Position numbers and translations under genes: made by a program. This document shows, piece after piece, positions 1 to 10,000 of a stretch of DNA of 10,000 nt (positions are counted from its first letter, which is position 1; each line of letters starts with the position of its first letter). Source of the stretch: Asticcacaulis sp. GTDB lineage: Bacteria > Pseudomonadota > Alphaproteobacteria > Caulobacterales > Caulobacteraceae. Location of the stretch: contig NZ_JAIWNX010000010.1 of the NCBI RefSeq assembly GCF_020217185.1, positions 1 to 10,000 of the forward strand. The letters run 5' to 3'. The notes below the pieces were generated by a model. The model saw only the letters and a program-made list of their open reading frames with translations. It did not search any database and had not been told where the DNA came from.

Positions 1-1320
1 ATAGGCGGCCTTATAGTCCACGCCGGGCACGCCCTTGATGCAGGCCTCGGCCAGAACGGCGGCGCTATGGTAGCCGATCATGGTGTCGGTTTCGCGCCCC
101 TGAAGCGGCCAGATGGGTGCGCCCGCCGGGCTTTCCTGCCCCATGCGCGCCAGACCGCCGATCATACCGGGCAGGCGCGGCCCCTGCGTCAGCGTGTACA
201 GCGGATGCGCGGCGCGATAGGTGTCCCACAGGCTGTAAGTCGAATAGTTCTCCTCACCGGGTTTCAGGCTGTGCACCTGATTGTCCATGCCGCGATAGCG
301 CCGATCGACGTCGGAAAACATGGTCGGCGCCAGCAGGCTATGGTAATGGGCCGTATAGAAAACCTTGTGGTCATTCGGGTCACTCAGGTCCACGCGGATG
401 CGCGACAGTTCGCTTTGCCACGCCAGATGCGCTGACCTGCGCGTGCTCTCGAAATCAAAGCCCGGCTGTTCAGCCTCAAGGTTTTTCAGCGCCCCGTCGA
501 TATCGACCGCCGAAATCCCCACCTTGACCAGCAGCGGGGCCGACCCCGCATCATCGAAATGCAGGGCGCATTTCAGCTTGCCGCCGGCAACCTCTGTGCC
601 GCCGACCGGCGCGTCGTCCTGATACAGTTCGGCACGGCTGAACGGACGCGACAGTTTCAGCGCAAAGAAGATCCAGCGCCCGCCGGCCCACATGAAGACC
701 TGACGCCCACCCACCAGCGTGTCATTGCCGATCAGGCGCAGACTCGTATTGTCGAGCTTGGTCGCGGGCGATTTTTCCCACCAGTTGCGCTGCCCGTGCG
801 CCCAGTCGATCAGAAGGTGCCCCGCCTCGCCGGCCGGGAAGACGTAACGGTGCAGACCCGTGCGCAAGGTGGCCGTCAGTTCGGCGCGCACGCGGCTGTC
901 GGTCAGGGTGACGGCGTAGTAGCCGGGACTGGCCACCTCATCGGTATAGCGCGAGCGGTAGCTGCCTCCGATCTTTCCCGGCTCACCGGGATTGAGCACG
1001 ACGGCTCCGGTGCGCGGCGTCACCAGACAGTCGAGCATATCCGCGCAGCCCGTCCCCGACAGGTGGGTGTGCGAAAAGCCCATGATCGAGCCGTCCTTGA
1101 CGTGATAGCCGGAGCAGGAATCCCAGCCATTATTGCTGGTGTCCGGCGACAACTGCACCATGCCAAACGGCAGGGTCGCTCCCGGATAGGTGTGGCCGTG
1201 GCCGCCCGTGCCGATAAAGGGATCGACATGGGCGCACAGGTCGTCTTCAGCGGCCAGAGACTGAACCGGCAGGACGGAGGCCACCGAGGCGGCCCCCAGA
1301 AGCGAACGGCGATTGATCAT
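1..1320 (-). CDS. GH92 exo-alpha-mannosidase, N-terminal 440 residues (partial, runs off the left edge)
   Basis: This is a calcium-dependent, inverting GH92 alpha-mannosidase; family members remove terminal alpha-1,2-, 1,3-, 1,4- or 1,6-mannose. The ATG at 1320 follows a GGAGTG ribosome site at 1328-1333. The first residues, INRRSLLGAAS, form a twin-arginine signal, with likely cleavage near the AA at residues 23-24 and no lipobox. Family hallmarks are visible: VDPFIGTGGHGHTYPGA at 32-48, PFGMVQLSPD at 51-60, GFSHTHLSGTG at 81-91, YSLWDTYRAAHPLYTL at 362-377 and GRETDTMIGYHS at 408-419. Full-length relatives have about 740-780 residues, so roughly 300 residues are missing. By comparison with Bacteroides BT3990 (recalled acid E533, base D644), the catalytic acid and base probably lie outside the window. 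It is the last visible operon gene, 45 bases after GH125. By analogy with Xanthomonas NixK it would remove the alpha-1,3-mannose of a plant N-glycan core. The family call is firm; the linkage is inferred. Confidence 0.95.
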   Translation of the reverse strand, partial: MINRRSLLGAASVASVLPVQSLAAEDDLCAHVDPFIGTGGHGHTYPGATLPFGMVQLSPDTSNNGWDSCSGYHVKDGSIMGFSHTHLSGTGCADMLDCLVTPRTGAVVLNPGEPGKIGGSYRSRYTDEVASPGYYAVTLTDSRVRAELTATLRTGLHRYVFPAGEAGHLLIDWAHGQRNWWEKSPATKLDNTSLRLIGNDTLVGGRQVFMWAGGRWIFFALKLSRPFSRAELYQDDAPVGGTEVAGGKLKCALHFDDAGSAPLLVKVGISAVDIDGALKNLEAEQPGFDFESTRRSAHLAWQSELSRIRVDLSDPNDHKVFYTAHYHSLLAPTMFSDVDRRYRGMDNQVHSLKPGEENYSTYSLWDTYRAAHPLYTLTQGPRLPGMIGGLARMGQESPAGAPIWPLQGRETDTMIGYHSAAVLAEACIKGVPGVDYKAAY

Positions 1321-1365
1321 CGAAAGGCACTCCATAGTCGCGGGTTATCGCGGCAAATCACAAGG
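1321..1365 (-). promoter_or_regulatory. Intergenic gap GH125-GH92 with ribosome binding site
   Basis: This is the longest gap between genes in the window, at 45 bases. It holds a good Shine-Dalgarno sequence, GGAGTG (1328-1333), 7 bases before the GH92 ATG. The only self-complementary element is a very short CGCG...CGCG pair just downstream of the GH125 stop. It is too weak to call a terminator, and no U-tract follows. GH92 is therefore probably co-transcribed with GH125 but translated from its own ribosome site. Confidence 0.6.
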
Positions 1366-2796
1366 TCACAGAAGGTCGGGGGCGGTCCGCATCAGGGTCA
1401 GCACGGTCTCTCCAAACAGGCTGTTGGCCCAGGCAAACCATGAGCGGGTGAAATGACCGGCGTCATCCTTATGCACGGACTCATTGACGAAACCGCGCGG
1501 AGCCGAGGCCCGCACAATGCCCGCAAGGCAGGCGCGTTGTTCGGCCTTGTCCTGCGTGGTCAGTATCTGCATCATCAGGGCGATGGGCCACACCGTGTCC
1601 GGCTCCGAATGCGGGCTGCCGACGCCGGACAGCACCTTGCCCTCGAAATAATAGGGGTTGCGGCGGCTCAACACCGCGCGGCGGGTGCGCTGATAGAGCG
1701 GGTCGTCGATACGGCAGGCCCCCAGATAGGGCAGGCTGAGCAGGCTTGGCACATTGGCGTCGTCCATAAACAGGCCATTGCCGAAGCCATCGACCTCATA
1801 GGCCCACATGTCGCCACCGTCAGGCGCGCTGAGGCGGCCATAGGCGTTCAGGGCGTCGCTGACCTCCTGCGCCAGCGCCAGACACGACTGCGCAAACCCT
1901 GCCCCAAGCCCCGTCGGTTGCGCCAGCTCAGCCAGTTGCCGCAGACTCACGACCGCAAAATGATTGGCCGGGATGAGGAAGGGATAGAGGCAGGCATCGT
2001 CGGACGGGCGGAAACCGGAATGGATCAGCCCGATCTTGCGCGTCGGGGCCCCGTAGCCGCGCGCCAGCGTCTCGGTGGGTTCGGACGCCGTGCGCTGAAA
2101 GCGGTAAGGACCGTTGCCCTCCTTACGCTGCTGAACGCGGAAGGTATCGACCACCGTGTGCATGGCGGCGCGCCAGGTCTCGTCAAAGGCGCTGACATCC
2201 CCCGTCTGCCGCCAGTACAGATAGGACAGGCGCACCGGATAGCACAGCGAGTCTATTTCCCATTTGCGCTCGGCCACACCCGGCTTCATGTCGGTAAAGT
2301 CGGTCTGCGACCATGACAGGTCGGTGCGCGCCCTGGGGTCGTGCATATAGGCATTGGCATAGGGGTCGATCAGGATGCAGCGCGATTGCCGGTGGATCAG
2401 ACCGACAAACAGGCGTTGCAGCGCCTTGTCCTCCGTCACCAGCGGCAGATAGGGCGTCACCTGCGCCGACGAGTCGCGCAGCCACAATGCCTTGATATCG
2501 CCGGTAATGACGAAGGTGTCGGGCTTGCCATCCACCTCCCCCAGCTCAACCGTCGTATCGAGCGTGTTGGGGTAGGCGTTTTCAAACAGCCGCGCTAGAG
2601 CCGGGTTGCGGATAGCGCGGCGGGCCTTGGTGATGGTCGCTTCGACCGCCGCCGAGCGGAAGCCTCGCTGTTGCGGCGGAAGCCGCAGGCCAGAGGCCAC
2701 CTGAGGCGACATGGGCGGAATTTCGGCCAGAGCGGGCGTCGCCAATGCGCCCAGTGTGGTTGCCCCCAAAGCGGTGAGAAACTGTCTGCGCTGCAT
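1366..2796 (-). CDS. GH125 exo-alpha-1,6-mannosidase, Tat-exported
   Basis: The 476-residue protein is a metal-independent, inverting exo-alpha-1,6-mannosidase of family GH125 (formerly DUF1237), with the single (alpha/alpha)6-barrel expected for the family. The N-terminus [12 protein letters not shown] is a twin-arginine signal with probable cleavage after ALA at residue 24. Family blocks include [19 protein letters not shown] at 101-119, [20 protein letters not shown] at 259-278, the [20 protein letters not shown] stretch at 330-349, [14 protein letters not shown] at 391-404 and [20 protein letters not shown] at 437-456. By comparison with the Clostridium perfringens enzyme (recalled acid D220, base E393), D266 or D267 and E439 are the likely acid and base; this pairing is inferred, not aligned. 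It starts 5 bases after GH35, with its ribosome site inside the end of GH35. In the Xanthomonas nix system the GH125 enzyme NixJ removes the alpha-1,6-mannose once GH92 and GH3 have acted. Confidence 0.95.
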
Positions 2797-2801
2797 CGGC
2801 C

Positions 2802-4643
2802 CTATCCTTTTACCAGACCCGGCAGGTCCCAGATCTGCGATCCCGAACCGGCCAGTGAGCGTTCGCCCTGATCGTGCAGGTCGAGCACGACGACCTCATT
2901 GACCCCGACCTTGAGATAGGGGGCCGGGACGAAGACGGCGCGCTGCGGCCCAACGGACCAGTAGCGGCCCAGATTGTGCCCGTTGACCCAGACATAGCCC
3001 TTACCCCAACCGCGCAGGTCGAGGAAGGTGAAGCCCGCCTCAGTCGTTTCAAACGTGCCGCGATAGAAGGCCGGTCCATCGACGCGCTGACGCTTGAAGC
3101 GCAAGGCGCTGAGGTCATCCAGCGATACGCCCAGATGCGTCCAGCCGGTAAGCGGCTTGCCATTCAGCGTGACCGGCCCGATCAGGCCCTTCTGATCCTT
3201 GCCGATCTGATCGCCGTAGTTGACGTGGCCCATGGCGTCGATGAGCAGGTCGAGCGTGTCACCGGCCTTAAGCGACACCTCTATCTCGGTCTCTTTCAGA
3301 CGGCGATCCAGCGTCCCGAACCGGGCCTGTCCGGCGCTGACGAGAGCATAGTCGCGCGCTTCGCCCACACGCAGTTGCCCCGAAAGCGCGGTTTTGGCCG
3401 CGTGGCGATAGAGCATCAGGCCGTGGTTCTGCCCCATCTGCTCAAAGGTTTTGGGCTGCGCATGGCTGACACCCTTGGGGTAGAGTTGTGACAGCGGGGC
3501 CGTTTCGCGCAGGGTAAAGCGCTCAATTTTGAGGGCCTTTTCCGGCTCCGGCAGGGCGGTGAAGCGCTCCGGTGGCAGGTAGCGACGGAACAGTTCGCGC
3601 GCCGCCTCGTATTTCGGTGTCACGCGCCCGGCCTCATCCAGCATGGCGTCGTAATCATAGCTGGAAATATCCGGCTGATAGCCATGCGTTTTGTGGAAGT
3701 TGGCCCCGGCGTCGAAGGCGAAAGAGGTGCCGCCGTGCAGCATGTAGAAGGAGAAGCTGATGCGGTTATCGAGCATCCATTTCAGGCTCTCCATCAGCGG
3801 CGGGATTTCCATATTGGAGTGCATTTCCCCGAAGTGGTCGAACCAGCCGCCCCACAGCTCGGTACACATGCGCGGGCCCTTGGTCTTGAACCTGGCATAG
3901 CGCGCAAACTCGCCCTCCGCCTTGTCATAGGTGCCGAAATTGATGCCATTGAACAGTTCCGGCAGGGCGCCGTTTTCAATGACCGCCGCCCCATCGACGG
4001 TATAGAGCTGACCGCTAAAACCGGCGGCGCGCACCTGATCGCGGACGGCGCGCATATAGTTGAGGTCATTGCCGTAGGAGCCGTACTCGTTTTCGACCTG
4101 CGTCATCAGGATCGGGCCGCCCTTGTCGATTTCAAGGTGCGCCACCTCCTGCCCCAGCCGCTTCAGCCACTGACCCGCCGGGCCCATATAGCGCGGGTCG
4201 AGCGAACGCGGGCGGATGTCCGGGTCATTGAGGAACCACGCCGGATAGCCGCCATTGTCCCACTCGGCGCAGGCATAGGGGCCGGGCCGCAACAGGACGT
4301 GCAGCCCCTCTTCCTGCGCCATCTTCACCCAGGCGGCGACATCGAGATTGCCGCTGAAATCATAGACGCCCGGCCTTTTCTCGTGCGCGCTCCAGAAGGT
4401 GTAGGTCGAGAGCGTATTCAGCCCCAGTGCCTTCAGCTTGCGCAGACGATCGCGCCACAGTTCGCGCGGGATGCGCGGATAGTGCATCTCACCCGCCATC
4501 AGGTGCACGGGCTTACCGTCCAGCAGGAAGTCATCATCCTTTATCGTAAAGCGCGACGGGGCCGCGCTGGCGTCAGCGGCTGAAAAACCGAGCGTCACCG
4601 TCGAAGCGGCCAGCCCGCCGAGAATCTGTCTGCGATCAATCAT
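2802..4643 (-). CDS. GH35 beta-galactosidase, Tat-exported
   Basis: The 613-residue protein is a retaining GH35 beta-galactosidase that releases non-reducing beta-galactose. The N-terminus [11 protein letters not shown] is a twin-arginine signal with cleavage near ASA/A at residues 25-28. The TIM barrel begins at about residue 32 with a classic GH35 opening: [20 protein letters not shown] at 51-70, [19 protein letters not shown] at 80-98 and [20 protein letters not shown] at 117-136. The motif [17 protein letters not shown] at 175-191 carries the acid/base E186, and [14 protein letters not shown] at 260-273 carries the nucleophile E262. These match E188 and E268 of human GLB1. A jelly-roll galactose-binding-like region ends the protein (about 525-595, [24 protein letters not shown]). 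A CAGGA ribosome site (4654-4658) precedes the ATG by 10 bases. GH35 also includes beta-1,3/1,4/1,6-galactosidases and some exo-glucosaminidases. In this operon, removal of the beta-1,3-galactose of Lewis a antennae is the most likely role, by inference. Confidence 0.95.
2805..2810 (-). promoter_or_regulatory. Ribosome binding site of the GH125 gene, embedded in the end of GH35
   Basis: AAAGGA makes up the last two sense codons (Lys-Gly) of GH35 and ends 8 bases before the GH125 ATG. The GH35 stop TAG lies between this site and the start. Ribosomes finishing GH35 would therefore cover the site, which suggests coupled translation of the two genes. It also confirms ATG 2796 as the start. Confidence 0.7.
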
Positions 4644-4660
4644 GAGCGTCGTATCCTGTC

Positions 4661-7285
4661 TTACTTCGGCAGCGCCATCTGGCCGGTGATCGAAAAATCG
4701 GCGTTCAGGGTCTGAGCAAATCCGGGCTGGCCGCCACCGACCGACAGGCTGTAGGCCCCGGCCCGGATGGCGCGCTCGCCCTCAAGCGTGACCGTACTCA
4801 GATCACGCGGGTCAATCGTCATATAAACGACCCGGCTTTCGCCCGGCTTCAGGCTGACGCGCGAAAACGCCGCCAGCGAGGCATTGAGGCCAAAGGCATC
4901 CGGACGTTTGACGTAAAGCTGAGCCACCTCGTCCCCGGCGCGCCGACCCGTATTGCGCACACGGACGCTGAGGCGCAGCGGCTGACCGGCGTTCAGCGAG
5001 GTCGTGTCCAGTTTCAGATCGCTATAGCTGAACTGCGTGTAGGACAGGCCGTGGCCGAAGGGATAGAGCGGCTTGCCCTTGAAATAACGATAGGTGCGCC
5101 CTTCCATGCGGTAGTCGATAAAGGGTGGCAGGTCCTGCACCGAACGATAGAAGGTCACGGGCAGGCGACCGGAGGGGTTAGACTCGCCGGTCAGGGTGCG
5201 GGCAATGGCCGTGCCCCCCGCCTCGCCCGGATACCAGGCGGCCACTATGGCGTCGGCGTGGGCGTCGGCCCAGTTAAGCGCCACCGCCGAACCGGACAGC
5301 AGTACCACCACCAGCGGCTTATCCGTCGCCTTGACCGCCTTCAGCAGATCTTCCTGCGTGCGCGGCAGGCCGAGATCGGTGCGATCCCCGCGGTCAAAGC
5401 CCGGCACCAGAATCTGAAGCTCCTCGCCTTCGATGTCCGGCGACAGGCCGACGAAGGCCACGATAGCGTCAGCGGCCTGCGCGGCCTTGACCGCTTCGTC
5501 GATCTGCGGCTGTGCCGGGGCGATCCATTGCAGGCGCACGCCCCAATCGCCGCCCACATGGCGGTACTCCAGGCGCAGACGGCGCGCGGCGGCGCTGTCG
5601 AAGGTCAGTTCGGCCTCCAGAGACTTACCGTCGCCCGTATCGACGATGACCGGCTTGTCATCGAGATAGAGGCGCACCTCATCGTGCTGATTGGCCTCGC
5701 AGGACCAGCAGCGATCCACGAACACTTTCAGGCGATAGGTGCCCGCCGCCGGGGGCACGATCTGACCGCTCCAGCGGATGCTGTAAGGGCCGTCTTTCAG
5801 CCCCTTGACCGGCAGGCGGTTCATGAATTCCAGATTTACGGTACGCTCGGTGCGCGTCTCGACCGGCGCACCGGCAAAATCGGCATTGGCGTAATAGCTG
5901 GCCGTCAGACCCGATAGGCCTTCAGGCGTGCGCAACGCGGTTTCGGGCACCGTAGTCGGCACCCCTTCGGCCAAGGTCGCGCCCTGCGCATAGAGCACCT
6001 TCGCGGCCCCCAGTTGCGCCCGCAATCCGGCCAGCGGCGTCACCGGCTGACGCGCTATGCCATTATAATTGCCGCGCAACGTCTCCTGCGTGTCGGCATT
6101 GGGGCCGATGACCGCGACAGTCTGACCCGGCTTGAGCGGCAAGACGCCATTGTTTTTGAGCAGGACCAGCGACTGTTCCGCCGCCTGTAGCGCCAATCCT
6201 TGCGCCTGCGGTGTATTGATGGCGGCCGGGCTGATCTTCGACCACGGGCTGGGCGCGCCGTCGATGCCGAGACGCTTGCGCACATCCAGCAGGCGGTTCA
6301 GCGACTGATCCATCAGGGATTCGGGGATCAGGCCCCGGCTCACGGCTTCGGGCAGGGCCGCATAGGCATTGCCGCAGTTGAGATCGACGCCAGCCTTCAG
6401 GCTTTCGGCCGAAGATTCAGCGTCATTGAGGCGATAGAAGTGAAAGCGCGTCATGTCGTAGATGGCGTCGCAATCGGTGACGACATAGCCCTTGAAGCCC
6501 CAGGCGTCGCGCAGATAGGTCTTGAGCAGCAGGTCAGAGGCACAGGCCGGAACGCCCCCCACGGCATTATAGGCACACATGACCGACTGCGCCTTGGTCG
6601 TCATCACCGAATAACGGAAGGCCGGCAAATAGGTCATTTCCAGATCATAGGGCGATACCGAGGCGGCAAAACCATGCCGACCGGCCTCCGGCCCCGAATG
6701 CACGGCCAGATGCTTGACCGAGGCCACGACCTTCGGGTGCTGCGGGTCCGGCCCCTGAAGCCCGGTGACGAAGCCTTCAGCCAGACGGCTGGTCAGGAAG
6801 GGATCTTCGCCATAGGTCTCCTGCCCCCGCCCCCAGCGCGGATCACGGAAGATATTGATATTGGGCGACCACAGGGTCAGGCCGTAATAGCGCGGGTGAT
6901 CCCCCGCCGGATCGGTCGAATTGAACTTGGCGCGCGCCTCAGTGGAAACCACATCCCCCACCTGTTTCAGCAGAGCCGGGTTCCAGGTGGCCGCCAGGCC
7001 GATGGCCTGAGGGAATACGGTGGCTTCGCCCGCCCGCGCCACGCCGTGCAGGCCTTCGTTCCACCATTCGTAGGCGGTCAGACCCGCCGATGGCAGGGCT
7101 GGCGCCCGGTTCTGCATCTGCGCCGCCTTTTGCTCGACCGTCAGGCGGGCAATGCGCGGGTCCATGGGTGGCTCAGCCGTTTGCGCCAGCGCCGCACCCA
7201 GGGACAGGGCCCCCAGAGACAGGGCACTGAGGCTTACGGTCAGCAGAAGGGGTTTCACAGCAGAAAATACAGATCGGGAAATCAT
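4661..7285 (-). CDS. GH3 beta-xylosidase-type hydrolase with PA14 insert
   Basis: The 874-residue retaining GH3 enzyme is predicted to be a beta-xylosidase and, by analogy with Xanthomonas NixI, to remove the beta-1,2-xylose of plant N-glycans. A Sec signal ends at ALA (residue 34). Domains in order are the TIM barrel (about 42-345), the first half of the alpha/beta sandwich (about 370-450), a PA14 domain (about 458-592), the rest of the sandwich (about 595-740, with EGEE at 619-622 as the likely acid/base region), and an FnIII-like domain (about 765-868). The nucleophile is D271 in GYVVTDCDAIYDM. Conserved K191-H192 and RDPRWGRGQETYGEDP are present. E77 (WWNEGLHG) and C272 replace the Asp and Trp usual in beta-glucosidases, a combination typical of GH3 xylosidases. 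The ATG overlaps the GH2 stop and has no clear ribosome site. A beta-glucosidase or mixed activity cannot be excluded. Confidence 0.93.
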   Translation of the reverse strand: MISRSVFSAVKPLLLTVSLSALSLGALSLGAALAQTAEPPMDPRIARLTVEQKAAQMQNRAPALPSAGLTAYEWWNEGLHGVARAGEATVFPQAIGLAATWNPALLKQVGDVVSTEARAKFNSTDPAGDHPRYYGLTLWSPNINIFRDPRWGRGQETYGEDPFLTSRLAEGFVTGLQGPDPQHPKVVASVKHLAVHSGPEAGRHGFAASVSPYDLEMTYLPAFRYSVMTTKAQSVMCAYNAVGGVPACASDLLLKTYLRDAWGFKGYVVTDCDAIYDMTRFHFYRLNDAESSAESLKAGVDLNCGNAYAALPEAVSRGLIPESLMDQSLNRLLDVRKRLGIDGAPSPWSKISPAAINTPQAQGLALQAAEQSLVLLKNNGVLPLKPGQTVAVIGPNADTQETLRGNYNGIARQPVTPLAGLRAQLGAAKVLYAQGATLAEGVPTTVPETALRTPEGLSGLTASYYANADFAGAPVETRTERTVNLEFMNRLPVKGLKDGPYSIRWSGQIVPPAAGTYRLKVFVDRCWSCEANQHDEVRLYLDDKPVIVDTGDGKSLEAELTFDSAAARRLRLEYRHVGGDWGVRLQWIAPAQPQIDEAVKAAQAADAIVAFVGLSPDIEGEELQILVPGFDRGDRTDLGLPRTQEDLLKAVKATDKPLVVVLLSGSAVALNWADAHADAIVAAWYPGEAGGTAIARTLTGESNPSGRLPVTFYRSVQDLPPFIDYRMEGRTYRYFKGKPLYPFGHGLSYTQFSYSDLKLDTTSLNAGQPLRLSVRVRNTGRRAGDEVAQLYVKRPDAFGLNASLAAFSRVSLKPGESRVVYMTIDPRDLSTVTLEGERAIRAGAYSLSVGGGQPGFAQTLNADFSITGQMALPK
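7196..7225 (-). repeat. 15-base tandem duplication in the GH3 signal peptide
   Basis: Two adjacent 15-base units, differing at 2 positions, encode ALSLG twice (residues 21-30) in the hydrophobic core of the GH3 signal peptide. The duplication keeps the frame and lengthens the hydrophobic stretch by five residues. It is probably a replication-slippage product with little functional effect. Confidence 0.7.
7282..7285 (-). other. ATGA stop-start overlap between GH2 and GH3
   Basis: The GH3 ATG (7285-7283) and the GH2 TGA (7284-7282) share two bases within ATGA. The 25 bases upstream of the ATG show no purine-rich Shine-Dalgarno sequence. GH3 translation therefore probably depends on ribosomes terminating GH2 and re-initiating, which would tie the amounts of the two enzymes together. 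Confidence 0.8.
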
Positions 7286-9963
7286 TGCGCAGCGCCATAG
7301 AGGGAACGGATGGTCAGCGCCCGACGCAGTTGCGCCTCGGAAGCTGAGGTTTTGAGATCGAGGGTGACGGTCTCACCGGGCAGCAGATCGAACGCATTGT
7401 CGGACAGGCTCACCTCCAGCGCGTCCGTGTCGACCCAGACCTGCCGCGCCAGCGTGCGCGCCGACAGGGTAAGGCGATAACCGTCCGCCGTGCGGGTCAG
7501 GCGCGATTTAATCTTCGGATCGCGGAGCGCCAGCGCCTTGGAGGCGACGAAATAGCTCTGATGCCGCGAGATGACCTGATCGTTTTCCAGAAGCTCGACG
7601 CTGACCACGGTCGATTTGGGATCGGCGCCTTTCAGCAGGTCGGCATCACTGAGGCGCGTGACGACCTGTGCGCTGAGCGGGGCGGCGTTGAGGTCCTGCG
7701 TCCATTGCGACAACAGCTTGCCGTCCAGCGTCATCACCTTCAGCCGCCAGTGCAGGCGCGCCTCGCTCTGACGATCAGACACCACCGACAGCTCGGTCAC
7801 GCCGTCGCGACGCAGCAGCGATACGGAGACGGGGGCATAGAAACGACGCGCCGAATAGTGCAGCGCCTTCCAGCGGCCGTAATAATCAACACTCGACCAC
7901 GACGCCACCGGCCACACATCGTTCAATTGCCAGTAGAGGCCGCCCATATTCTGCGGGCGTGAGGCGCGCAGGTGCCGCGCCGCCAGCTCGATACCTTCGG
8001 CCTGCATCACCTGCGACAGATAGACGAAGTCCTCAAAGCGCCTGGGCTGACCGTAATTGTTATTGATGTACATCAGAAGGCGCTGATTACCACGACCCTT
8101 GTCGAACTTCTGGTGGGCGATCATCACCGGGGCATCAATGGCCATATCCTTCGGCTCGGCAAAGGCCTTGATCGTCGCCATGACCGGGAAGGATTGCAGC
8201 CCGTATTCCGACATGAAGCGCGGCGTTACCGTCAGATAGGTTTCCACCGGCTGCTTGCCGCCCCAGACCGTCCAGTAGTGGCGGTCCCCGTCGCGGTCAC
8301 CATCCGACGGCCCGTCATAGTCAGCCGTGGGGGAACCCGGCCAATAGGGTACGCCCGGTGAATATTTATCGACCGCGCCGCGCAGCACCTGATCGAACAG
8401 ACGGACCAGACCGGTATGGATGCGCTCGGCCTCCTTGCGACCCACCTTGTCCTTCAGGGCCTGACTGTCGCCCCAGTTATCCCAGTTGACCTGCACCTCG
8501 TTATTGCCGCCCCAGATGACAATGGAGGGGTGATGGCGCAGGCGACGCACCTGATCATAGGCCTCCTGACGCACGTTTTCGCGATAGGCTTCGTCGTAAG
8601 GCGGGATGGAGCCGCCGAACATGAAGTCCTGCCACAGCATCAGGCCGTGGGCGTCGGCCCAGTCGTAAAAGCCATCGTCGAAATAATGCCCCCCACCCCA
8701 CAGACGCAGCATGTTCATATTGGCGTCGATGGCGGTTTTGAGGATGCGATCACGGTAAGCGTCCGATACACGCGGCGGCATCATGTCGAGCGGGATCATG
8801 TTGGCGCCCTTCATATAGATGGGCACGCCATTGATCAGTATGTCGAAGCCGCGCCCCCATTCGTCCTTCTGACGGCGAATTTCAGAGGTGCGCAGACCGA
8901 TGCGCTGCACACGCTCGCCCATCACCACGCCGTCGCTCAGAACACGGGCGCGGACGGTGTAGCGATCCGGGCGACCATAACCCACGGGCCACCAGCGTTT
9001 CGGATGGTCGATGCGCACCGGCAGGCTGAGGCTGTTGCTTCCAGCATAAAGGGGAAGGGTTTGCGTCTGGGTCTGCGTCTTGCCGTCCGGATCGGTGACG
9101 GTAACCTCCAGAGTCGCGCTGCGCGCTGTGTCGGAGACGATCTCGAAACGTGCCTCCAGAGCCGCTACCTGATCATCAAGGTGCTGTTGCTGCGCATAAA
9201 AGTCCGACAGACGCACCCCGTCATAAATATCCAGCCGCACCGGCCGCCACGGCCCCAGCGTCACAATGCGCGGGCCCCAGTCCCAGCCGTACTGATACCC
9301 GGCCTTGCGCACATAGGCCGAACTGTTCTGCCCCAGCGGCTCATCGCCAAAGGCCGAGTCATAGGCTCCCGGCTGGTAATAGCTGAGCCCCTGCATAAAG
9401 GGCCGCATTTTATTGATGGGTGAGGCAAAACGGATATGCAGGCGATTGGCCCCATTCACCACCATGTCCTTAACCGGCACACGCCAGGTGCGGAACATAT
9501 TGTCTGTGGAGAGAAGCGCCTTTCCGTTCAGCGTCACCTCGGCAAACGTATCCAGCCCGTCGAACACAAGGTCGATATGGCCGCGCTTCAGCGTCGCCTC
9601 ATCGAGCGTAAACGACGTTTCGTATTCCCAGTCCGACAGGCCGACCCACTGCGCCGCCGCCTCGTTCAGGCCGACATAGGGGTCTTTGAGCTTGCCCGAC
9701 GCAATCAGGTCGCTCTGCACCGTGCCCGGCACCGTGGCAGGCATCCAGTTGGTGACTTCGGGATGGGCCGCGCGATTGGGGTCGCCCTCAGCGATGCGAA
9801 AGCGCCAGCCGTCCGTCAGGGTCCGCGTCTCAAGCCCTTTCAGAGCCTCCGCCCGCGCCGGCACGCCCATCAGAGAGAGAGTCATAATCAGCCAGAGACA
9901 AAAAGCGATCAGCCCGCCCATCCCGGCGGCCACACGTCCCTTCGAAATCACTGTCCGATGCAC
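7282..9963 (-). CDS. GH2 beta-mannosidase
   Basis: This retaining exo-beta-mannosidase is predicted to cleave the Man-beta-1,4-GlcNAc bond of the N-glycan core. I place the start at GTG 9963 (893 residues) because AAGGGAGA lies 7 bases upstream; an in-frame GTG at 9987 would add 8 residues but has only a poorly spaced GAGG. Numbering is from 9963. A Sec signal has its hydrophobic core at 16-34 and cleavage after ARA at 38. Domains are the sugar-binding sandwich (about 47-240), an Ig-like domain (to about 365), the TIM barrel (about 372-690) and C-terminal beta domains. YQYGWDWGPR at 223-232 is a beta-mannosidase signature. E489 in IWGGNNE is the acid/base and E586 in RFMSEYGLQSF the nucleophile. 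The stretch YWQLNDVWPVASWSSVDYYG (677-696) is also typical. A small in-frame repeat gives DGDRDGDR in the loop at 554-561. This is the first visible gene of the operon and is coupled to GH3. Confidence 0.95.
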   Translation of the reverse strand: MHRTVISKGRVAAGMGGLIAFCLWLIMTLSLMGVPARAEALKGLETRTLTDGWRFRIAEGDPNRAAHPEVTNWMPATVPGTVQSDLIASGKLKDPYVGLNEAAAQWVGLSDWEYETSFTLDEATLKRGHIDLVFDGLDTFAEVTLNGKALLSTDNMFRTWRVPVKDMVVNGANRLHIRFASPINKMRPFMQGLSYYQPGAYDSAFGDEPLGQNSSAYVRKAGYQYGWDWGPRIVTLGPWRPVRLDIYDGVRLSDFYAQQQHLDDQVAALEARFEIVSDTARSATLEVTVTDPDGKTQTQTQTLPLYAGSNSLSLPVRIDHPKRWWPVGYGRPDRYTVRARVLSDGVVMGERVQRIGLRTSEIRRQKDEWGRGFDILINGVPIYMKGANMIPLDMMPPRVSDAYRDRILKTAIDANMNMLRLWGGGHYFDDGFYDWADAHGLMLWQDFMFGGSIPPYDEAYRENVRQEAYDQVRRLRHHPSIVIWGGNNEVQVNWDNWGDSQALKDKVGRKEAERIHTGLVRLFDQVLRGAVDKYSPGVPYWPGSPTADYDGPSDGDRDGDRHYWTVWGGKQPVETYLTVTPRFMSEYGLQSFPVMATIKAFAEPKDMAIDAPVMIAHQKFDKGRGNQRLLMYINNNYGQPRRFEDFVYLSQVMQAEGIELAARHLRASRPQNMGGLYWQLNDVWPVASWSSVDYYGRWKALHYSARRFYAPVSVSLLRRDGVTELSVVSDRQSEARLHWRLKVMTLDGKLLSQWTQDLNAAPLSAQVVTRLSDADLLKGADPKSTVVSVELLENDQVISRHQSYFVASKALALRDPKIKSRLTRTADGYRLTLSARTLARQVWVDTDALEVSLSDNAFDLLPGETVTLDLKTSASEAQLRRALTIRSLYGAAQ

Positions 9964-9970
9964 GAATGGT

Positions 9971-9978
9971 TCTCCCTT
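9971..9978 (-). promoter_or_regulatory. Ribosome binding site deciding the GH2 start (GTG 9963)
   Basis: AAGGGAGA is a near-consensus Shine-Dalgarno sequence, with 7 bases separating it from the GTG at 9963-9961. It lies inside the reading frame that would open at GTG 9987, so it favours the shorter protein. Even the longer form would have a signal peptide, but with an extended N-region. Confidence 0.65.
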
Positions 9979-10000
9979 GCTCTGCACAGCCCTCAGGCCA

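Follow-up and report, generated by a model that had tools for sequence, protein, structure and literature searches.

The 10,000-nucleotide stretch of Asticcacaulis sp. DNA analysed here (the window; contig NZ_JAIWNX010000010.1) carries five glycoside hydrolase (GH) genes on its minus strand, in the order GH2-GH3-GH35-GH125-GH92 (Table 1). All five products exceeded the Pfam cut-offs for their families by a wide margin, and the intergenic spacings are −4, +17, +5 and +30 bp, so that a single operon is likely. The original prediction, made from the letters of the window, had already proposed a tight operon of these families, and was borne out in this. Its extent of 1-9963 was nearly right: the genes span 1-9987, and the operon continues past GH92 into a sixth gene. 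GH92 itself crosses the window edge, the rest of its 767 residues being encoded in a neighbouring 10-kb piece (L003). The sixth gene, which begins on the final base of the GH92 stop codon, encodes a protein without a Pfam family, here called the orphan; Asticcacaulis sp. DW145 has the identical one-base overlap. The whole window is 93.3% identical to plasmid pASDW145_1 (345 kb) of DW145, a duckweed isolate (PMC11008219), and this identity, together with the relatives found, places the predicted alphaproteobacterial host in Asticcacaulis. The order of the neighbouring genome pieces was read from synteny with the DW145 plasmid as C240, C241 (the window), C221. MsrPQ, GH9 and PurB genes (L005) were rejected as parts of the locus because DW145 synteny and the position of the receptor gene place C221 after C241.

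The closest solved relative of the GH2 protein is 6bye (1020 bits), which we take to be the X. citri enzyme XAC3075; the next other enzyme, 2vjx, scored 598 bits. In the available text of PMC12243196, 6BYE represents the beta-mannosidase subfamily GH2_13, and GH2 is predicted to cleave Man-beta-1,4-GlcNAc. GH3 has beta-xylosidases as its closest PDB relatives and is 58% identical to X. sacchari protein P0229, while GH35 is predicted to remove antennary galactose. When the DW145 GH92, 97-98% identical to that of the window, was compared with solved structures, 7zgm ranked first (583.8 bits) and 6f8z second (540.7). According to PMC9522356, both are alpha-1,3-mannosidases, the former being an enzyme of B. 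massiliensis for plant N-glycans; kinship to 7ZGM is supportive of a plant-type substrate, not decisive. Judged by eye, GH92, GH125, GH35, GH3, the orphan and the GH29 encoded nearby have Tat-like or Sec-like N-termini, from which we infer that the enzymes are periplasmic.

Much of this gene set recurs in the nix cluster of Xanthomonas, with which it was compared at the level of protein family and gene order. We take NixE, NixI, NixJ, NixK and NixL to belong to GH29, GH3, GH125, GH92 and GH35, respectively, and NixF (COG3858) to GH18. As outlined in the accessible parts of PMC6718126 and PMC5700972, the cluster comprises the nixD receptor, nixE fucosidase, nixF, nixG hexosaminidase, nixH beta-mannosidase, nixI, nixJ, nixK mannosidase and nixL beta-galactosidase genes, with cutC near. 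Common to both systems are a TonB-dependent receptor, GH29, GH2, GH3, GH125, GH92, GH35 and a nearby cutC, and the GH2-GH3-(GH35)-GH125-GH92 order is collinear with nixH-I-J-K as given by the nix locus tags (PMC6718126). Gene order thus brings the system close to nix, and in X. citri nixI and nixJ are likewise separated by a second beta-galactosidase gene, in the position of GH35 here (PMC5700972). Relatedly, a related locus in Sphingomonas pokkalii has GH20 directly before GH2, in the place of nixG. On the other hand, a NixF-type GH18 was not found in the Asticcacaulis genome, and whereas nix holds the NixG hexosaminidase within the cluster, the Asticcacaulis cluster has GH84, with GH20 elsewhere. 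The Asticcacaulis locus, which is alphaproteobacterial, also adds the orphan, a GntR/UTRA regulator, a NagK-like kinase and a halogenase homologue. The locus is accordingly classed as nix-like rather than as nix, given that the genome gave no GH18 match and the cluster lacks GH20. A scan of the phylum with GH2 matched 21 of 398 genomes (E <= 1e-100), and the Xanthomonas nix cluster was not identified in the regions from 8 of these 21. The plant N-glycan pathway of Bacteroides massiliensis likewise has a GH92 alpha-1,3-mannosidase, a GH3 beta-1,2-xylosidase and a GH29 core fucosidase, but there the genes, which also include those for a PNGase and for a beta-1,3-galactosidase of GH2, are spread over separate loci (PMC9522356), whereas the Asticcacaulis genes lie mostly in one operon and include GH35.

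Related loci carry further marks of N-glycan breakdown. When named genomes were scanned for members of the orphan family, 343 relatives emerged, the best 80 of which were compared (by title, 45 counted as alphaproteobacterial, 35 as other); several of these stretches end early at contig ends, and Sphingomonas is over-represented. Among the 45 alphaproteobacterial loci, GH92 was present in 41, GH29 in 38, GH3 in 32, GH2 and GH125 in 28 each and GH20 in 20, followed by the receptor (19), AGA (11), CutC (9), BadF (7), GH35 (4), GntR (3), GH84 (2), GH85 (2) and the halogenase (1). GH2, GH3 and GH92 occurred jointly in 28, and four had none of GH2, GH3, GH92 and GH125; all 20 loci with GH20 were from Sphingomonas or Caulobacter. 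Glycosylasparaginase cleaves GlcNAc-Asn, the anchor of N-glycans, and a glycosylasparaginase-type gene lies between GH92 and the orphan in Asticcacaulis sp. AC466 and A. benevestitus, the protein of the latter scoring 381 bits to glycosylasparaginase versus 126 to isoaspartyl peptidase. A GH85 endoglycosidase gene follows the orphan at ~1.6 kb in AC466 and ~8 kb in A. benevestitus. The neighbours of the orphan, GH29, GH92 and GH125 in Nitrospirillum viridazoti are NagA, which scores 287 bits (cut-off 225.65), a BadF-type kinase, and a NagB-II-like protein that stays below its cut-off (339 against 430 bits). The order in S. pokkalii is GH20 (cut by the stretch end)-GH2-GH3-GH125-GH92-orphan-GH29-Asparaginase_2-receptor, and that in another stretch from the same class (L145) is receptor-GH20-GH2-GH3-GH125-GH92.

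Two further stretches from the same phylum were noted. One (L151, 5472-17019) has a compact N-glycan-like cluster of GH92, a transporter-like gene, GH2, CutC, a GH85-like gene (29% over 217 aa), an Asparaginase_2 gene whose product is 56% identical to the glycosylasparaginase, and a BadF-type kinase; neither the orphan nor GH3 or GH125 was matched in its 20 kb. In the other (L143, 6972-17098), CutC and GH2 are followed, beyond an unresolved stretch, by a GH92 59% identical to that of the window; this is perhaps another nix-like locus, outside the class.

The genes flanking the operon are listed in Table 1; adjacency of the receptor and cutC to the operon was inferred from DW145 synteny. The TonB-dependent receptor and GH29 sought in the flanks were both present, and so was a GntR/UTRA regulator gene, a candidate for the GlcNAc regulator that was also sought. 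GH84 and the NagK-like kinase also sit near the operon. The closest solved relative of the GH29 is 8ayr (574.6 bits), an Akkermansia fucosidase described as acting on alpha-1,3/4-fucose of Lewis epitopes (PMC10067855, accessible part). Between the receptor gene and GH2 lies a hairpin followed by six U (−20.8 kcal/mol, z −4.5 on folding), so that a separate promoter for the glycosidase genes is possible. Neither a promoter nor a terminator emerged when L108 1-400 was scanned for consensus sequences, with loops of <=8 bases and a U tract directly after the stem required, and there was no convincing operator motif common to the three intergenic regions. The GH84-GntR segment (L003:1369-4472) is just 83% identical to DW145 against 88-93% in the remaining locus, which points to faster evolution or exchange at that end. 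The halogenase homologue adjoins the TonB receptor here; in AC466 a halogenase adjoins the orphan. Farther off, L009:1449-8237 is possibly a second plant-polymer locus: a pectinesterase, an esterase-like protein and a TonB receptor that has an STN domain are encoded there, along with what looks by eye like a sigma/anti-sigma-like pair.

Table 1. Features of the operon and its flanks. Bare coordinates refer to the window; the prefixes L108 and L003 denote neighbouring stretches of the source genome.
Feature	Coordinates	Strand	Evidence or position
GH2 beta-mannosidase (NixH-like, predicted)	7282..9987	-	Pfam GH2 and mannosidase Ig domains
GH3 with PA14 insert, predicted beta-1,2-xylosidase (NixI-like)	4661..7285	-	Pfam GH3 N, GH3 C, PA14, Fn3
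GH35 beta-galactosidase (predicted)	2802..4643	-	Pfam GH35, 353 bits; PDB best 8fa5, 503.7 bits
GH125 alpha-1,6-mannosidase (NixJ-like, predicted)	1366..2796	-	Pfam GH125, 529 bits, full profile; PDB GH125 relatives
GH92 alpha-mannosidase (NixK-like, predicted), N-terminal 445/767 aa in the window	1..1335, then L003:9032-10000	-	Pfam GH92N and GH92
Orphan, 755 aa, without Pfam family	L003:6765-9032	-	downstream, overlaps GH92
GH29 with F5/8 domains	L003:4630-6747	+	downstream
GntR/UTRA regulator	L003:3550-4293	-	downstream
GH84	L003:1365-3410	-	downstream
TonB-dependent receptor	L108:209-2878	-	upstream of GH2
Tryptophan-halogenase homologue	L108:3277-4809	+	upstream
CutC	L108:4816-5598	+	upstream
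BadF-type kinase, NagK-like	L108:5609-6517	+	sole NCBIfam match GlcNAc kinase NagK, 229.6 bits (cut-off 370)

The locus probably serves N-glycan catabolism, its substrates most likely being N-glycans that carry xylose and fucose and come from plants or plant-like algae. The claim of a xylosylated plant N-glycan substrate thereby divides in two: N-glycan as the substrate class is well supported by gene content and by the GH20, GH85, glycosylasparaginase and NagA genes of relatives, while the plant type seems likely but is unproved.

A number of observations weigh against this reading. GH18 (PF00704) had no match in the source genome, which is 95.8% complete (6 of 14 controls matched), nor was GH85 found there, although both had been proposed as families to look for in the flanks, and the Asparaginase_2 proteins of the genome are just 38-40% identical to the glycosylasparaginase of the relatives; the glycan release step may therefore differ from that of nix. 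A search for PNGase F (PF09113) matched none of its controls and carries no weight either way. GH20 and GH85, also sought in the flanks, do occur in related loci, but the sole GH20 found in the source genome lies outside the cluster (C188). According to PMC10154615, activity on plant N-glycans had, at the time of its writing, not been demonstrated for any GH18 or GH85, so that the release step is putative in nix as well. The top NCBIfam model for GH3 is the xylosidase Xyl3A, in keeping with the predicted xylosidase type, but the match is loose (784 bits, under a cut-off of 1250). Aligned by eye, GH92 keeps three of the six +1-site residues of 7ZGM (H530, W178, W209) and has three changed (Y72, E532, S533); 6f8z, also an alpha-1,3-mannosidase, scores close behind and has an aligned Trp at the W209 position too. 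The specificities, order of action, location, regulation and role of the orphan are deduced from what was observed, namely gene content, order, spacing, homology and conservation. Outside the Alphaproteobacteria, three of the 35 orphan loci have any of GH2, GH3, GH92 and GH125. Within the family of the window (Caulobacteraceae), the orphan (E <= 1e-60) occurs in 13 of 199 genomes, 10 of these 13 being among the 25 Asticcacaulis genomes; GH92 lies within 2.5 kb of it in 12 of the 13 (the two are on different contigs in the remaining one), and the orphan is missing from 3 of 16 family genomes that have GH92 at >=64% identity, Asticcacaulis genomes among those without it. The locus is therefore patchy in the family, and the orphan is a frequent, not fixed, component.

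The same enzymes might degrade N-glycans of a high-mannose, insect or microalgal type rather than the xylosylated plant type. This is an improbable but serious alternative, since GH92, GH125, GH2, GH84, GH29 and glycosylasparaginase would fit any fucosylated N-glycan, related loci come not just from leaves but also from a pond, and conservation of the 7ZGM pocket is partial. However, a xylosidase-kin GH3, present in 32 of the 45 alphaproteobacterial loci, would be needless for a glycan without xylose; moreover, GH92 is closest to the plant-specific enzyme 7ZGM, and DW145 came from duckweed. Fungal alpha-mannan, with GH92 and GH125 as the degradative core and the other genes as accessories, seems very unlikely, even though a marine operon with GH92, GH125 and GH2 together with GH76 and GH43 is thought to serve it (PMC10154615, accessible part). 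The source genome gave no match to a GH76 endo-alpha-1,6-mannanase (2 of 14 controls matched, one above the cut-off), which counts against mannan, and GH29, GH84, the NagK-like kinase and the glycosylasparaginase of relatives do not fit it; yeast-mannan flanks, which would have told against an N-glycan operon, thus gave way to GH29, GH84 and the NagK-like kinase nearby. A mixed hemicellulose side-chain cluster for xyloglucan or galactomannan, in which the alpha-mannosidases are incidental, has the slightest chance of all: GH3, GH35, GH29 and GH2 are hemicellulose families as well, but GH92 and GH125 share an operon, 30 bp apart, and recur with GH20, GH85 and glycosylasparaginase.

If plant-type N-glycans are indeed the substrate, the TonB-dependent receptor would take an N-glycan or glycopeptide into the periplasm, where exo-enzymes would act in turn: GH29 on fucose, GH35 on galactose and GH84 or GH20 on antennary GlcNAc, followed by GH92 on alpha-1,3-mannose, GH3 on beta-1,2-xylose, GH125 on alpha-1,6-mannose and GH2 on beta-mannose. 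The orphan probably works at or near the GlcNAc core, the NagK-like kinase would phosphorylate GlcNAc, and regulation would most likely fall to the GntR/UTRA protein.

Searches of the orphan against Pfam gave no GH84 match, and the lone match up to E 10 was a chance one to TraW_N (0.68). By fold (Foldseek, VIA-align), GH115 and GH84 were among the top rows, and profile comparison with the local GH84 gave a probability of 90.5 over 157 columns; for GH20 the corresponding probability was 6.6. Absence from the VIA-align rows does not in itself speak against a family. Strand 4 (246-249) leads into GGDPGH, in which D253 is invariant and the one acid, whereas GH84 has Asp-Asp and GH20 Asp-Glu there, as matched by eye. 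The fold thus appears GH84/GH115-like without the usual acidic pair, if the by-eye residue matching is right. At least 3527 proteins are related to the orphan. In five stretches from Pedobacter, Acidobacteria and Bryobacteraceae, its relatives adjoin BNR-repeat proteins, Fucose_iso_C, an FGGY kinase, and HpcH/HpaI or DHDPS aldolases, neighbours that hint at a deoxy- or keto-deoxy sugar context. A tentative possibility, less likely to be right than wrong, is that the orphan gives a first view of a glycosidase family, as yet unclassified, whose barrel is GH84/GH115-like but whose catalytic set differs. Alphaproteobacteria would have recruited it to a plant N-glycan step that the nix scheme assigns to NixF or NixG, such as cleavage of the alpha-1,3-fucosylated chitobiose core.

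An equivalent alphaproteobacterial system had been suggested to be undescribed, and no such locus was described among the literature matches listed (titles and abstract openings; most subscription journals lay outside the search). Homologues of NixE, NixF and NixL are reported from several phyla, chiefly in plant and soil bacteria, and no such locus is noted in the accessible text (PMC5700972). In the literature examined, plant N-glycan breakdown has so far been linked to Xanthomonas and gut Bacteroides. The locus points to an uncharacterised glycosidase-like family in the orphan, and it is a potential source of enzymes for trimming plant-made biopharmaceuticals. If the plant-type reading is true, the presence of a collinear locus in Asticcacaulis, Caulobacter, Sphingomonas and Niveispirillum, with one copy carried on a plasmid in a bacterium from duckweed, would add ordinary bacteria of plant surfaces to those that feed on these glycans.

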